In this document: in pieces, positions 20,124 through 48,839 of the stretch
Layout: the number at the start of each line of letters is the position of its first letter
How positions within the stretch are numbered: the first letter of the stretch is position 1
From: an uncultured Flavobacteriales bacterium
Lineage (GTDB): Bacteria; Bacteroidota; Bacteroidia; Flavobacteriales_D; Sanyastnellaceae
Reading direction: 5' to 3'
Assembly (NCBI GenBank): GCA_905479115.1
Contig: CAJQLF010000008.1
Location: forward strand, 1-64,000
Length of the DNA: 64,000 nucleotides
The notes under the pieces: generated by a model
What the model was told of the DNA's origin: nothing
The model's database searches: none
Seen by the model: the letters and a program-made list of their open reading frames with translations, nothing else
Position numbers and translations under genes: made by a program

Positions 20124-22586
20124 TTAGAACGGCAAATCACTGTCCCTGAACTCCAGTTTCAAATCTTTGAGCATGGAAGCCTTGATATTCAGGCGAACAT
20201 AGAAGCTTTTCCGAATGCCGATCGGCACCCAATTGAAGGAGAGTTCCCAGCAATGTAAATCCCAGTACACATCCAATTGAGTGGGCGTCAATTCCCGCTG
20301 TATGAAGTCATAGCCTCCATTCACATCCACGCGCCAGCGTTCAGCCAAACTCACCGAACCGCGAATGCGCGCGGATTGGGACATGATCAACGTATCCCGC
20401 TGGCTCCCTGCGAGCCAATTCTTGCGCACATCGAGGTTATAGTCTACTCGGCAATTCCATGGAAATTGCGTGTCCTCTCCCCCTTTGAAATTGCTGCCGA
20501 ATGCTGCATTTGCGCGCGTCATGCGGAGAAACCCTTCACCTCGATCCCATAGAAATTCATCGACCCGCATCCCGGACGAATCTCTCGCATAAGCGCTGTG
20601 CGTGACACCCACATTAATGCGCATGCGATTGAATAAATCGGTGTTGGCCCGTGTCGTAATGTCACTTAACCCCAACGAATCAGCAATCAGGTTGTAATTG
20701 GCCGATGTAACGACGTTGTCGATCAGTCGAACCTTTTTGACTTCTCCCGTCTCTCGGTCGCGCACTTTGGCCTCCAGGTTCTGCGAGATCCCCACATTGA
20801 CAGCTCCCGAAGCTCGGATATCTTGTGGGGTAAATCGGTTGAGGCTGTAGGGGTTAAATTCCCACGATTCGTCGTTGAGGCTCACCTCTTGTGTTCGCTG
20901 ACGTTCCGGTGTGTAACTCAATCCCACCGAAGGGCTGATTACGTGGCGAAGGGCTTGGACGCGCTTGTCCTTCCCCCGTTCAAATATCCCATAAAAACGC
21001 GTAGAGGCATTGGCTGACAAACGCCAATCCCGCGTGGATTGGAATCCGGCCAACGTATCCCGAACCTGCATCACTCCTTCGTCAGTCTCCTCCAAGAATC
21101 CATCCAAGGATTCAAACGCCCAAAATTCATTGTAATTGAATGAAGGCGTCAAACTGACAAATCCCAACCGCATCTGTGTGGATGCTGATGCCGTGTGCTT
21201 GAGGCCATTTCTAAATGAAACTTGATCCCAATCACCCGAGCTAAAAACACTATCTGGCGCCTGCATGGTTTGCTCAAATCGGGTCGAACCTGTGATGGCA
21301 ATCTCATCGAGCAGTCGGTTGCCCACGGTTTGCAAGCCCATCAATTTGGCCAAACTCGATCGCTGCAAGTTGAAGGTCAATGAAGGAAGGGTGAGGTCAA
21401 CATTCCCTGTTTGGGAGTTTTGGGCATGCCGCGCGCTCATGGCCACATTAAATGGCTTTCCGGGAAACGACCTGGAATACTGCACACTCGATTGAAACGT
21501 ATTGGTCAGAAAGTCCTGCTGTGTGGCTCCTAGGTTGGACTGAAAGTGGTCACTTGAGCCAAAGTTGACACTCGTATTGAAGCGACTGTTGGGCTTAGCC
21601 CGGTTGTCTTGGTTGTGCGTCCACCGCACAAAGAATTGGCTCTTCTTCGTCAGACTGGGCAACCCACTGAAGCCAAATCGCTGTCGCTGGTAACTGAGGT
21701 TGAGGTTGCCACTGGCCCAATACCGCGCCTTATAATTCGTACTGCTTCGAATTGCCCAAGAACCTCCCGTATAAATATCCCCCGTGAGTCGAGTGTCCGC
21801 GTACTCACCTAGCGGCATGTAATACCCCAAATCTTTGAGGAAAAAACCGAGGCTCCCTCCATTTCCATAGCCCGGCATAAGTAACCCGTGGCTGCGCTTT
21901 TCTGGGGCGGTGGGAAACCAGCCAAATGGCAAGGCGAGGGGAGTCGGTATTTTTCGAAACTTTAAATAAAACGGGCCCGAAATCACCTTTTCACCCGGAA
22001 TCATAATGGCGCGCTTCAGGTGAAAATGAAAATGGGGATTCTCAGCTGTGCACGTGGTAAACTTGGCGTCGGATACGTGGATTTTTTCATTCGACTGGCG
22101 CTTGGCAATTTCCGCGTGAAACACCGCCTCTCCTTGCACTGTAACAGCCTGCCTGCTCAATCCTCTGCGGGATTTTAGGTCAAAACACAGCTCATCCTGG
22201 TCGAAGGTTTGACCACCCTGAGTCAATACAGGTCGACCGATCCAGGCCCCCGCAGAATCCCGGCGTCCATACGCGCAAGCTTGATTGGTCGAAGCCGTGT
22301 AAATAATTCGATCGGCCTCGAGGCGAATGTCATCAAGAGCAACAAATGCCTTCCCATACAGCTCTACTTGAGACGAATCCACATTCAAACGGGTGGAGTC
22401 CGAAGCTCCCCACGTCACCTCAAACGAAGCTTCCACTGGCGCGGCGATGGAGTCCTGCACCCCTGCTTCGATTGGGGATTGGCCCAACGCAAAAAGGGGG
22501 GCGATTATCCACATTCCAACACGGAAAATCCCCTGCAAACAGACGATGCAAAGACCCGACGACGTTTTAGATTTGATGTTACCCAT
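20124..22586 (-). CDS. lptD: LPS assembly outer-membrane protein LptD (OstA family)
   Basis: This 820-residue protein has a signal peptide ending FALGQ, an N-terminal OstA/LptA-like beta-jellyroll (residues about 60-190, with repeated strands such as VELYGKAFVALDDIRLEADRI) and a long C-terminal beta-barrel rich in alternating aromatic strands. It inserts lipopolysaccharide into the outer leaflet. The conserved barrel-entry segment LPFGWFPTAPEKRSHGLLMPGYG marks the LptD domain of Bacteroidota. The start at 22586 is preferred because TAGTTTTG lies 11 bases upstream; a later ATG at 22514 would lose the basic part of the signal. The ATG shares CATG with the divergent amidase start. Confidence 0.9.
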   Translation of the reverse strand: MGNIKSKTSSGLCIVCLQGIFRVGMWIIAPLFALGQSPIEAGVQDSIAAPVEASFEVTWGASDSTRLNVDSSQVELYGKAFVALDDIRLEADRIIYTASTNQACAYGRRDSAGAWIGRPVLTQGGQTFDQDELCFDLKSRRGLSRQAVTVQGEAVFHAEIAKRQSNEKIHVSDAKFTTCTAENPHFHFHLKRAIMIPGEKVISGPFYLKFRKIPTPLALPFGWFPTAPEKRSHGLLMPGYGNGGSLGFFLKDLGYYMPLGEYADTRLTGDIYTGGSWAIRSSTNYKARYWASGNLNLSYQRQRFGFSGLPSLTKKSQFFVRWTHNQDNRAKPNSRFNTSVNFGSSDHFQSNLGATQQDFLTNTFQSSVQYSRSFPGKPFNVAMSARHAQNSQTGNVDLTLPSLTFNLQRSSLAKLMGLQTVGNRLLDEIAITGSTRFEQTMQAPDSVFSSGDWDQVSFRNGLKHTASASTQMRLGFVSLTPSFNYNEFWAFESLDGFLEETDEGVMQVRDTLAGFQSTRDWRLSANASTRFYGIFERGKDKRVQALRHVISPSVGLSYTPERQRTQEVSLNDESWEFNPYSLNRFTPQDIRASGAVNVGISQNLEAKVRDRETGEVKKVRLIDNVVTSANYNLIADSLGLSDITTRANTDLFNRMRINVGVTHSAYARDSSGMRVDEFLWDRGEGFLRMTRANAAFGSNFKGGEDTQFPWNCRVDYNLDVRKNWLAGSQRDTLIMSQSARIRGSVSLAERWRVDVNGGYDFIQRELTPTQLDVYWDLHCWELSFNWVPIGIRKSFYVRLNIKASMLKDLKLEFRDSDLPF
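22568..22575 (+). promoter_or_regulatory. -7 element TAGATTTG of the amidase gene, inside lptD
   Basis: An exact match to TAnnTTTG on the plus strand, nine bases before the amidase ATG at 22585. It lies within the first codons of lptD on the other strand. No TTG is found at the expected -33 distance. Confidence 0.5.
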
Positions 22587-23754
22587 GAACCGGCAGCCAA
22601 AACTAACGAAACGGGCGGTGCTATGCGCCATGACAGCAATGATAATGCTGTCCGTTTCTTTTGCGCCCCTTCCTCCTAGCATGGTTTTGGTCATCGATGC
22701 CGGGCACGGCGGTTCGGACCCGGGCAACCTCGGGACTGGACGGTATGGCGAAACTGAAAAAGCCGTCACCTTGGATGTGGCGTTGCTTTTGCGCAAGTAC
22801 ATCACTGAACGCTTCCCCGACGTGAAAATTGTCATGACGCGAACGGGGGATTCTTACCCATCGCTTAAGAAACGGGTAGCGATCGCAAACGATGTCCAGG
22901 CCGACCTCTTTATGAGCATCCATTGCGACGCTTTCACCAACGCAAACGCGAGCGGCTCGAGCACATTTGTCATGGGAATGCATAAATCCGAAGAAAGCCT
23001 CCGAGTGGCTATGCAGGAGAATGCTTCGATGTTCAGGGAGGATGACTACAAAACACGGTATGCAGGTTTCGACCCAGACGATCCGGACACCTACATCGCC
23101 CTTGCATTGAAGCAATCGGTCTTTGTCAACAAAAGTCTGGAACTGGGGAGCCTCATTCAAGATCAATTCCAAAGCCGGGTAGGCAGAAAAGATCGCGGGG
23201 TTCGCCAAGCTGGTTATTACGTAATCAGCTTCACACAAATGCCTTCTGTCCTCGTAGAGTTGGGGTTCTTGACCAATCCATCCGAAGAGGACTTTTTGAA
23301 TTCCACAAATGGAAAGGAACTCATGGCTTCGGCCTTGCTTCGCGCATTCAGAACCTATAAAGAGAAGCACCATCCCGGTCCCGAAGAACGCCTTCCACAG
23401 GCCACGGAAGACGTATCACCCGAACCCTCTGCCCTTTTAGAAATGAGCCCAGCATCTGCTGAACCATCCGACGAATCCTCCTCTGCCCTTGTGTCGCCAA
23501 GCTTTCGTGTGCAGATATTGGCATCGCAGGACCCCTTATCCACAGATGATTCACGGCTTGAAGGGCTCACGCCTGTGGTGGAGTATCTTCGCAATGGTCT
23601 TTATAAATACGCGGTGGGTTCATTTTCCACTTCTGTCCAAGCCAGCGTCTACAAATCCCAACTGCAACAGATGGGGTATCCGGACGCCTTCGTTGTGAAG
23701 TTCGAAGGAACAAATTGGGCAGAACAAGGTGTGAAACCCCTCCGTAAAAATTAA
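22585..23754 (+). CDS. N-acetylmuramoyl-L-alanine amidase with C-terminal SPOR-like domain
   Basis: This 389-residue secreted enzyme cuts the bond between N-acetylmuramic acid and the stem peptide and so helps separate or remodel the cell wall. After a signal peptide (MNRQPKLTKR then a hydrophobic run) comes an Amidase_3 domain: DAGHGG with zinc ligand His41, the acidic ligand in RYGETEKAV, SIHCDA with the second histidine, and the catalytic VELGFLTN glutamate. A Ser/Pro/Glu-rich linker leads to a C-terminal SPOR-like domain (FRVQILAS ... YKYAVGSF ... DAFVVKF) for peptidoglycan binding. It heads an operon with the MCE and Fe-S genes. Confidence 0.9.
   Translation: MNRQPKLTKRAVLCAMTAMIMLSVSFAPLPPSMVLVIDAGHGGSDPGNLGTGRYGETEKAVTLDVALLLRKYITERFPDVKIVMTRTGDSYPSLKKRVAIANDVQADLFMSIHCDAFTNANASGSSTFVMGMHKSEESLRVAMQENASMFREDDYKTRYAGFDPDDPDTYIALALKQSVFVNKSLELGSLIQDQFQSRVGRKDRGVRQAGYYVISFTQMPSVLVELGFLTNPSEEDFLNSTNGKELMASALLRAFRTYKEKHHPGPEERLPQATEDVSPEPSALLEMSPASAEPSDESSSALVSPSFRVQILASQDPLSTDDSRLEGLTPVVEYLRNGLYKYAVGSFSTSVQASVYKSQLQQMGYPDAFVVKFEGTNWAEQGVKPLRKN
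22598..22605 (-). promoter_or_regulatory. -7 element TAGTTTTG of lptD, inside the amidase gene
   Basis: An exact match to TAnnTTTG on the minus strand, eleven bases before the lptD ATG at 22586 and inside the amidase signal-peptide codons. With the plus-strand element it forms two promoters that face each other. Confidence 0.5.
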
Positions 23755-23759
23755 TTCAC

Positions 23760-24809
23760 GTGGCACAAGTTTCGAAAGAATTTCGCATTGGAGCATTGGT
23801 CCTAGTCGGACTCATCCTCCTTGTGCTGGGTGTGAATTACATGAAAGGCTTCAATCCTTTTGCTGCGTCGAACACCTACTACGCTCATTACGAGGAAATC
23901 GATGGCTTAGCCGTTTCCAACCCCGTGCTGGTAAATGGCTTCAAAGTTGGTCAAGTAACCCAAGTGAAGTTTTCGGAATCAGGTAATGGGTCGCTCATTG
24001 TCAGCTTTGATATTGAAGAGTCCGCTCTGCAATTGAACCGAGACACCAAAGCCAAAATCACCTCCAATGACTTATTCGGCACCAAGGCCATTGACCTGAT
24101 CTACGGAACAAGCGAAGAGTTGGCTCAACCAGGCGACACGCTCTTAAGTGAACTCGAAGTAGGCATTGCGGAGGCCGTAAGAATTGAACTGATGCCGCTC
24201 AAAACCAAAACGGATCAACTCATTGACGGGGTCGACGACATCCTCGAGAACCTTAAAGCGGTCTTTGAAGCGGATGCCACCTTGGGGTTGCCTACTGCCT
24301 TCGAAAGCATCCAGCGCACGGTCGAGAGCTTGGAGCAAACATCCTTGAAGCTGGACGCGATGGTTGCTGAAAACCGATCAACCTTGCAAAATATTTTTAA
24401 AAATGTCGATGGCATCACGTCCAACTTGAAAAATCACAACGACGATTTGTCCAATGTCATGGAGAATTTCTCTGAAATCTCGGATTCGCTCGCTGCCTCC
24501 AATTTCGCCCAAACCATTCACCGCGCAAACTCCGCGTTGACCCAAGTGGATGAAATCACCCGTAAAATAAATAACGGGGAGGGTTCACTCGGGCAATTAG
24601 TCAACAGCGATTCACTGCACAACGGATTGGTCGCTACCAACCTCGAACTGCAGTACTTGATTAATGACCTCTACTTGAATCCTTGGCGGTACGTCCGAGT
24701 CTCGGTTTTTGGTAAGAAACAAGAAAAGTCATTGTCCAACAAAGAGCTCAAGAAATTGCGCGACATCATTGACGAAGAACTCGATAAGCGTTCTTCTGAC
24801 GATTTATGA
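23760..24809 (+). CDS. MlaD/MCE-family phospholipid transport protein
   Basis: The 349-residue protein starts with a GTG codon five bases after the amidase stop. One N-terminal membrane helix (residues 9-26) is followed by a single MCE domain, visible as NPVLVNGFKVGQV and the ITSNDLFGTKAIDL segment. The rest is a long helical, coiled-coil-like region with a charged tail. Such proteins form hexameric rings that move lipids between the membranes. No MlaE/MlaF transporter genes are adjacent here, so its partners must be elsewhere. It overlaps the following Fe-S gene by four bases. Confidence 0.88.
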   Translation: MAQVSKEFRIGALVLVGLILLVLGVNYMKGFNPFAASNTYYAHYEEIDGLAVSNPVLVNGFKVGQVTQVKFSESGNGSLIVSFDIEESALQLNRDTKAKITSNDLFGTKAIDLIYGTSEELAQPGDTLLSELEVGIAEAVRIELMPLKTKTDQLIDGVDDILENLKAVFEADATLGLPTAFESIQRTVESLEQTSLKLDAMVAENRSTLQNIFKNVDGITSNLKNHNDDLSNVMENFSEISDSLAASNFAQTIHRANSALTQVDEITRKINNGEGSLGQLVNSDSLHNGLVATNLELQYLINDLYLNPWRYVRVSVFGKKQEKSLSNKELKKLRDIIDEELDKRSSDDL

Positions 24810-46960: not shown

Positions 46961-47380
46961 TCAGGCCATCTCACGCGCGCTGAAATAGAACGCTCCTTCG
47001 ATAGCGGCGTTCTCATCGCTGTCCGAACCATGCACGGCATTCGCCGCGATGCTCTCGGCAAAATCTGCGCGAATCGTCCCCGGTGCTGCTTCAGCAGGAT
47101 TAGTCGCTCCGATCAACTCCCGAAAATCTGCCATGGCATTGTCCTTTTCCAGAATAGCCGCAACAATGGGACCGCTTGACATGTATTCCGTCAATTCACC
47201 AAAAAATGGCCGCTCTGCATGCACAGCATAAAACGCTTGAGCGTCTTCGAGGGTGAGTTGCGTCCACTTCATTGCCTTAATGCTGAATCCAGCCTGAATG
47301 ATGCGGTCGATGATTTTTCCAGTGTGCCCTGCGCCTGTAGCATCGGGCTTAATCATGGTAAATGTGCGGTTCGTCGCCAT
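46961..47380 (-). CDS. ndk: nucleoside diphosphate kinase
   Basis: Ndk transfers the gamma phosphate between nucleoside triphosphates and diphosphates. The 139-residue protein has the active-site motif NAVHGSDS with catalytic His117, the [10 protein letters not shown] start and the ERPFFGEL segment. An exact TACTTTTG element lies 23 bases before the ATG, the same gap as in front of the aconitase gene. It is transcribed alone and ends at a terminator. Confidence 0.96.
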
Positions 47381-47403
47381 GGTAATTTTGTTCTATTGGA
47401 GTG

Positions 47404-47411
47404 CAAAAGTA
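47404..47411 (-). promoter_or_regulatory. -7 element TACTTTTG of ndk
   Basis: An exact match to TAnnTTTG on the minus strand, 23 bases before the ndk ATG. No TTG is seen at -33. Confidence 0.5.
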
Positions 47412-47546
47412 GTTCGCAATTCTTAAATGCAGCCTGCGGAGAATTCGAAAACACTCCGAAGACCCCGAAGCGGGCACGGGTATTTTGGCATATCTCATCG
47501 CTTGGGCGATCCTAGCCAAGGAAGCTGTTCAGCCCTCCCCCTTCCG

Positions 47547-47554
47547 TATCTTTG
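47547..47554 (+). promoter_or_regulatory. -7 element TATCTTTG of rocD
   Basis: An exact match to TAnnTTTG with four bases (CCTC) to the ATG at 47559, which implies a leaderless rocD mRNA. A TTC at 47528-47530 is a weak -33 candidate. Confidence 0.55.
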
Positions 47555-47558
47555 CCTC

Positions 47559-48839
47559 ATGAAGGTTACTATTCCGAAGAGTTCTGCTCAGGCCATGGAG
47601 ATGGAGAACGCGCATGGCGCTCACAATTATCACCCCTTACCCGTCGTGTTGGACCGAGGAAACGGCGTCCACGTCTGGGACATTGAGGGCAACCAGTATT
47701 TTGACTTTCTGAGCGCTTATTCTGCGGTAAATCAAGGCCACTGCCATCCCCGTATTGTAGGCGCCATGAAAGACCAAGCGGACAAGTTGACCTTGACCTC
47801 TCGGGCTTTCTTCAACAGCACATTGGGCAAATACGAGGCCTTCGTAACATCCTACTTCGGCTACGACAAAGTCCTGCCGATGAATACGGGAGCCGAAGCG
47901 GTGGAAACCGCCATTAAAATTGCGCGAAAGTGGGCCTATGACGTCAAGGGTGTTCCAGCTGGATTAGCCAAAATCATCACGTGTGAAGGCAACTTTCACG
48001 GCCGAACAACCACCATTGTTAGTTTCAGCACAGACCCCGACTCAACGGGTGGATTTGGCCCTTTCACACCGGGATTCGAAGTCATTCCCTACGACGACAC
48101 CGAAGCTTTGAAAGTAGCGCTCCAAGACCCCCATGTTGCCGGCTTTTTGGTGGAGCCCATTCAGGGCGAAGCCGGTGTTTACACGCCTTCGGAAGACTTT
48201 GTTCAAAAGGCTAAAGCCCTGTGTGAAGCTGCCGGAGTACTCTTCATTGCAGACGAAGTTCAGACCGGTATTGCACGGACGGGATCCCTGCTCGCGACGT
48301 GCGGAAATTGCACTTGCGCTGGACACTGCGAACGGCAATCAACCTATACCAAGGCAGATATTTTGATTTTAGGGAAAGCCCTCTCTGGTGGGGCTTACCC
48401 AGTCAGTGCTGTGCTCGCTGACGATGAAATCATGGGCGTGATTCATCCCGGCCAGCACGGATCTACCTTCGGCGGAAACCCTGTTGCCGCTGAGGTCGGC
48501 ATCGCCGCATTGCAAGTCGTGGTGGATGAAAATTTGTCGCAGAATGCACGTCAACTGGGGGTGCAATTCCGTCGAGCAATGGAGTCGCTCATCGCCGAAT
48601 CGGACCTCCTGGTCCATGTCAGGGGAAAGGGGATGTTAAATGCCGTTGTAATCAACGACTCCCCGCAAAGCTCAACGGCGTGGGACTTGTGCGTGGCCCT
48701 CAAAAACAACGGCTTGCTCGCCAAGCCCACTCACGGCAACATCATTCGGTTCGCGCCGCCTTTGGTCATGACAGAAAAAGAACTCGATGCATGCATCGAG
48801 ATTATCCGCAAAACCGTTTTGGATTTTAAAAGGGGTTAG
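47559..48839 (+). CDS. rocD: ornithine aminotransferase
   Basis: RocD transfers the delta-amino group of ornithine to 2-oxoglutarate, a step in arginine breakdown and proline formation. The 426-residue PLP enzyme has the family's [15 protein letters not shown] motif, [21 protein letters not shown] and the PLP lysine (Lys273) in GKALSGG. A cysteine-rich loop, C248-x2-C251-x-C253-x3-C257, lies about 15 residues before the lysine; a metal site is possible. The start at 47559 was chosen because of the adjacent -7 element; a long frame from 47427 has no family support. Its end overlaps the convergent cysteine-synthase-like gene by four bases. Confidence 0.93.

Follow-up and report, generated by a model that had tools for sequence, protein, structure and literature searches.

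Facing −7 elements around a shared CATG at the divergent lptD/amidase junction of a Flavobacteriales bacterium, with a candidate regulator site at a fixed distance

Face-to-face divergent promoters with a shared operator are found in Escherichia coli at the bioA/bioBFCD and argE/argCBH gene pairs. The junction described here, between lptD and an amidase gene, bears on an open question in Gram-negative cells, the coordination of outer-membrane LPS assembly with turnover of the cell wall. Our search of the literature on the regulation of this gene pair found nothing beyond a study of PhoP in Riemerella anatipestifer, a member of the same order (PMC9603813). That study reports DAP-seq peaks of PhoP upstream of both the amidase gene KYF39_04370 and lptD (KYF39_04375), among a total of 583 peaks over 764 genes, and gives TTTAACA as the core motif (PMC9603813). 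Both genes went up in a phoP deletion, with log2FC values of +1.61 for the amidase and +1.84 for lptD (PMC9603813).

The locus lies in the window, by which we mean the whole stretch of 64,000 nucleotides analysed, part of one contig (CAJQLF010000008.1) from an uncultured Flavobacteriales bacterium whose draft genome measures 2.27 Mb. The coordinates of its features are collected in Table 1. lptD and the amidase gene diverge from two ATG codons that overlap on a CATG, and the positions given for them in a preliminary description of this DNA, made from the sequence alone, hold. The CATG is the sole start for both genes that recurs in 21 of 21 genomes of the genus (this one and 20 others in which the locus was found). 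The other start codons considered, at 22630 for the amidase, at 22514 for lptD and at 22576 and 22546, are not conserved and were rejected. Neither reading frame closes at the shared CATG: upstream of it both continue for about 190-250 nt (22393-22835), so that automatic gene callers may misplace either start and call overlapping genes.

Table 1 Features of the lptD/amidase junction (positions in the window)
Feature	Position	Strand	Remarks
lptD, LPS assembly outer-membrane protein (LptD_2)	20124..22586	-	820 aa from ATG 22586; Pfam PF19838, E 1e-125
N-acetylmuramoyl-L-alanine amidase (Amidase_3)	22585..23754	+	389 aa from ATG 22585; Pfam PF01520, E 2.3e-50
mlaD	23760-24809		directly 3' of the amidase gene; MlaD PF02470
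CATG with both start codons	22584..22587	.	invariant in 21 genus genomes; also common to genera g7, g14, g18, g21
Amidase promoter -7 element TAGATTTG	22568..22575	+	inside lptD codons 4-7; genus-invariant; synonymous codons frozen; TAnnTTTG kept across the order
lptD promoter -7 element TAGTTTTG	22605-22598	- (plus strand CAAAACTA)	inside amidase codons 5-7; TAG[CT]TTTG across the order
Predicted amidase transcription start	22580..22581	+	4-5 nt leader; inferred from F. johnsoniae spacing (PMC6847099)
Predicted lptD transcription start	22592..22593	-	6-7 nt leader; inferred from F. johnsoniae spacing (PMC6847099)
Upstream element TTATCCACA	22505..22513	+	54 bp before the amidase -7; codes Trp-Ile of lptD; order consensus TTAT[C/T/G][A/C]ACA
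Second conserved block CGGAAAAT	22522..22529	+	about 9 nt after the TTAT element; order consensus CGnGGA[TA]AAT; in the lptD signal-peptide region

Upstream of each ATG, at the positions first proposed, lies an exact match to TAnnTTTG. The plus-strand element TAGATTTG ends 9 nt before the amidase ATG and the minus-strand element TAGTTTTG ends 11 nt before that of lptD; the two face each other with 22 bp between them. The preliminary description was also right in finding no −33 TTG: neither TTG nor TTTG is present at this position at the locus, and none is conserved in the relatives. In Flavobacterium johnsoniae, too, the −33 element is weak (PMC6847099), so that it is not a strict requirement of Bacteroidota sigma-A promoters. 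The genome-wide motif and codon statistics were drawn from 390 kb of stretches of this genome. In these 390 kb, TAnnTTTG occurs in 168 copies (two strands together). Of 350 ORF-called genes, 64 have it no more than 60 nt upstream of an ATG, whereas 29 permuted motifs with the same composition averaged 15.4; TAnnTTTG therefore marks promoters in this genome. The more restrictive form TAHHTTTG, defined in F. johnsoniae and with no G at −10/−9, does not describe the locus, where both −7 elements carry a G at −10, a base nearly absent from there in the −7 elements of F. johnsoniae. TAG forms of the element also precede other genes of this genome. Across the order the lptD element is nearly always TAG[CT]TTTG, and the G at −10 may mark a distinct promoter subclass.

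In F. johnsoniae, 4-5 nt separate the −7 element from the start site (PMC6847099). With this spacing the transcription starts, which had been expected near 22582 on the plus strand and 22591 on the minus strand, are corrected to the predicted positions in Table 1. Leaderless genes are expected to show a gap of 4-5 nt after the −7 element, and the genome's own leaderless peak is at a gap of 4; the gaps of 9 and 11 nt at this locus lie outside that range. With predicted leaders of 4-7 nt the two mRNAs would be nearly but not quite leaderless, between the leaderless peak and ordinary leaders. The peak itself is sharp: in the window and stretches L032-L051 (390 kb of G000), TAnnTTTG stands exactly 4 nt before the ATG of 16 genes, and at 3-5 nt in 24 compared with about 2.3 expected from permuted motifs, implying many truly leaderless mRNAs in this genome. 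An example of the leaderless type is the gene for an MnmA-like product starting MRIVVGLSGGVDSS. For F. psychrophilum a leaderless share of 5.5% has been reported (PMC9723704), and most leaders of F. johnsoniae are longer than 10 nt (PMC6847099).

The junction alignment revealed both −7 elements and the CATG in 21 of 21 genus genomes; in L016 the lptD element reads TAATTTTG, with a change at an unspecified base. Codon identity, calculated over same-residue codon pairs in the genus, is 1.0 over codons 4-8 of lptD (0.45 gene-wide) and 0.81-1.0 over codons 2-9 of the amidase gene (0.48 gene-wide). The plus-strand element encodes K-S of lptD in the window, the minus-strand element lies within P-K-L of the amidase (S-K-L in most relatives), and in the genus both fall in the basic n-regions of two signal peptides. 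Conservation might then reflect coding constraint on these signal peptides, as both elements code lysine-rich n-regions in the genus. Against this, synonymous positions are frozen, including the rare codons ATA (7.9% of the genome's Ile codons) and CTA (4.3% of Leu). Moreover, the elements are retained in genera in which they do not code for protein. Coding constraint was rejected on these grounds and is, in our view, hardly credible.

Beyond the genus, the facing pair TAnnTTTG...CAAAnnTA within 45 bp was found at 53 of 69 order-wide loci from 12 Flavobacteriales families, mostly with a gap of 20-27 bp, against a chance expectation of 0.33% per locus in Markov-resampled DNA; the relatives are non-independent samples. 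In a comparison whose search itself demands the six specified bases, the unspecified ones vary around them (TAA, TAC, TAG, TAT), which indicates that the surrounding DNA has diverged. Within the family, most genera have the pair at the lptD/amidase boundary with a gap of 19-24 bp (31 in g21), and most other families of the order have it too, with gaps of 11-42 bp. The full arrangement is absent from the f4 and g20 lineages. At the class level, in other Bacteroidia, lptD is divergent from the amidase gene in 27 of 28 loci, 14 of these 27, including one in a Prevotellaceae genome, having the facing pair within 45 bp. Conservation of both elements, put forward earlier as a check on the promoter model, thus held in the genus, in the order and in part of the class.

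The inverted symmetry and the near-constant spacing in the family could also be those of a dyad operator, TTTG-N-CAAA, recognized by a DNA-binding protein, the two halves then not being promoters. This is very improbable. Both halves are complete sigma-A −7 elements whose orientation and position suit their own genes, spacing is variable in other families, and halves occur singly: g20 has the lptD half only, and several f3 loci the amidase half only, together with its TTAT module (see below). That both elements are real, facing sigma-A promoters is, on the sequence data, well supported.

The lptD/amidase pair is the sole facing pair present in all 21 genus genomes. A second facing −7 pair in the window, at 47383-47411 with 13 bp between its elements, is flanked by genes for a nucleoside diphosphate kinase (46961-47380, minus strand) and a class-III aminotransferase (47427-48839, plus strand); it is not conserved across the genus. 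Another recurrent facing pair, TACTTTTG...CAAAAATA around CCATG, was seen at G002:C10:13923-13956, G003:C94:9668-9701, G015:C33:23279-23313 and G020:C160:7932-7965.

The preliminary description had placed each promoter in the first codons of the opposite gene. This applies to the genera that share the CATG (g1, g7, g14, g18 and g21) and to no others; elsewhere the start codons are outside the promoters, which lie in intergenic DNA or leaders, and embedding in coding regions is therefore secondary. On a tree of lptD N-terminal parts the shared CATG is explained by one or two changes. As judged from these sequences, the shared CATG is a derived, later step and the facing promoters are older. In the clade of the window the start codons would have moved inward until a single CATG was shared, whereupon the −7 elements came to code parts of the opposite signal peptides.

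The facing elements of the earlier account stood, but it had missed an upstream element, TTATCCACA, that keeps a fixed distance. In 32 of 35 order-wide loci (one locus being taken for g1) the spacing from this upstream TTAT element to the amidase −7 element is 53-54 bp; that to the lptD −7 element ranges from 73 to 143 bp. Since the first spacing is fixed and the second variable, the TTAT element must be assigned to the amidase promoter, even though its position is within lptD. Its synonymous positions, like those of the CGGAAAAT block (22505-22529 together), are frozen in the genus, where the rare Ile codon ATA is invariant. Several f3 loci have the element without having the facing pair, and outside the order sample it also occurs at three loci of the class-level set, L209, L210 and L214. 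Conservation across the loci compared thus bears out the facing geometry of the −7 elements as well as the locked position of the TTAT element.

In g1 and g14, TTATCCACA is an exact match to the DnaA consensus, and a DnaA box could tie the gene pair to replication. However, the forms found outside these two genera (TTATCAACA, TTATTAACA and TTATGAACA) are poor DnaA boxes, the box is single at the locus, and TTATCCACA occurs 5 times in 390 kb. With a good box in g1 and g14 only, it was rejected as the main reading and we consider it very improbable. The TTAT element is probably a regulator site, to judge from its conservation. Class I activators sit about 60-70 bp upstream of the transcription start in E. 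coli. The center of the TTAT region would lie at about this distance from the predicted start, an activator-like position, with repression equally possible. Searches of the genus genomes for TTATNNACA-N53/54-TANNTTTG and for TTATNNACA-N9-GGANAA each returned this locus only, once per genome, so that no regulon emerged by either exact pattern, and a phylum-wide pattern scan was swamped by chance matches in AT-rich genomes.

When compared to the PhoP core motif TTTAACA, the form TTATTAACA, present in several families, is close, whereas the genus form TTATCCACA fits poorly. The genome encodes three OmpR-family regulators. As PhoP has 583 peaks in R. anatipestifer, a single peak is weak evidence, and the link to PhoP is a good lead, not proof. 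Both genes rise without PhoP there, which favors shared control over simple opposition in a see-saw. Experiments in a relative thus support co-regulation of lptD and the amidase gene and give no such support to simple mutual exclusion.

We consider it likely that the junction is a head-to-head regulatory region, ancient within Bacteroidia, with two facing sigma-A promoters, mutually exclusive polymerases and an OmpR-family regulator at the TTAT element that sets both genes. lptD and the amidase-mlaD unit would be read in opposite directions from two sigma-A promoters with −7 elements about 22 bp apart. By sequence geometry and conservation the promoters are opposed and their transcripts would cross each other's promoter. 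Taking a polymerase to cover −50 to +20, the footprints would presumably extend over roughly 22530-22600 at the amidase promoter and 22573-22643 at that of lptD. These estimates overlap, so that the two promoters would exclude each other. The predicted starts are about 12 bp apart; the transcripts would overlap at their 5' ends, with one promoter occupied at a time, and each elongating polymerase would cross the other promoter. Mutual interference would be physically expected from this layout and is plausible. The regulator is most likely a PhoP-type response regulator from the OmpR family; it would bind the TTAT element and set the output of both genes. Polymerase exclusion, interference and the identity of the regulator are what we infer from this arrangement.

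Alternatively, the facing arrangement may come from compaction, with a regulator acting on both genes and interference negligible at these promoter strengths. We give such coordinate control somewhat less than an even chance. The joint rise of both genes without PhoP in the R. anatipestifer data (PMC9603813) speaks for it, as do the gaps of 11-42 bp outside the family, for which no exact geometry is needed, but the gap hardly varies within the family, where most genera have 20-24 bp. Facing pairs are also no by-product of compaction in the genus, being in general rare and unenriched (1-5 per genome vs 2-14 for a control pattern); the type that is enriched is the back-to-back −7 pair, with 8 seen where 2.2 were expected. 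Tentatively, the locus may be a module in which promoter competition keeps LPS insertion and peptidoglycan cutting in balance. Kept since early Bacteroidia, it would leave the total to one regulator and the ratio to polymerase exclusion, and in one marine clade it would have been taken up into the coding regions of two signal peptides, around one start codon that both genes share.

The wide recurrence in Bacteroidia suggests a long-standing transcriptional tie between LPS making and cell-wall cutting. A single short segment of DNA appears to control one key gene from either process, and the same layout is met again across a class with gut and marine bacteria. The junction offers a concrete element for mutation and an instance of promoter sequence becoming part of two proteins.

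Face-to-face divergent promoters are a known arrangement, of which lptD/amidase is an old, widespread, housekeeping case. As far as the literature that we searched shows, its deep conservation at a pair of envelope housekeeping genes, the fixed-distance upstream element and the absorption into two signal peptides are undescribed. The convergent transcription proposed to give interference and switching at scbA/scbR of Streptomyces coelicolor (PMC3134472) is similar, but it serves a dedicated antibiotic switch, whereas lptD and the amidase gene co-vary in a relative. In bidirectional promoters of Salmonella plasmids (PMC10268837), sigma-A elements likewise drive both strands within a few bases; those are symmetric within a shared promoter, whereas here separate −7 elements, one per gene, are 22 bp apart. 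The PhoP regulon of R. anatipestifer includes the same gene pair, bound upstream and PhoP-repressed there (PMC9603813). With E. coli bioA/bioBFCD and argE/argCBH the locus has in common divergent genes, facing promoters, transcripts that would overlap at their 5' ends and one regulator for both, here a candidate. Those operons serve biosynthesis and have their operator between the promoters, whereas the present pair belongs to envelope housekeeping and uses the Bacteroidota −7 element; its candidate regulator site is 54 bp upstream from one of the two promoters, and in one clade the pair is entirely contained in the two coding regions.
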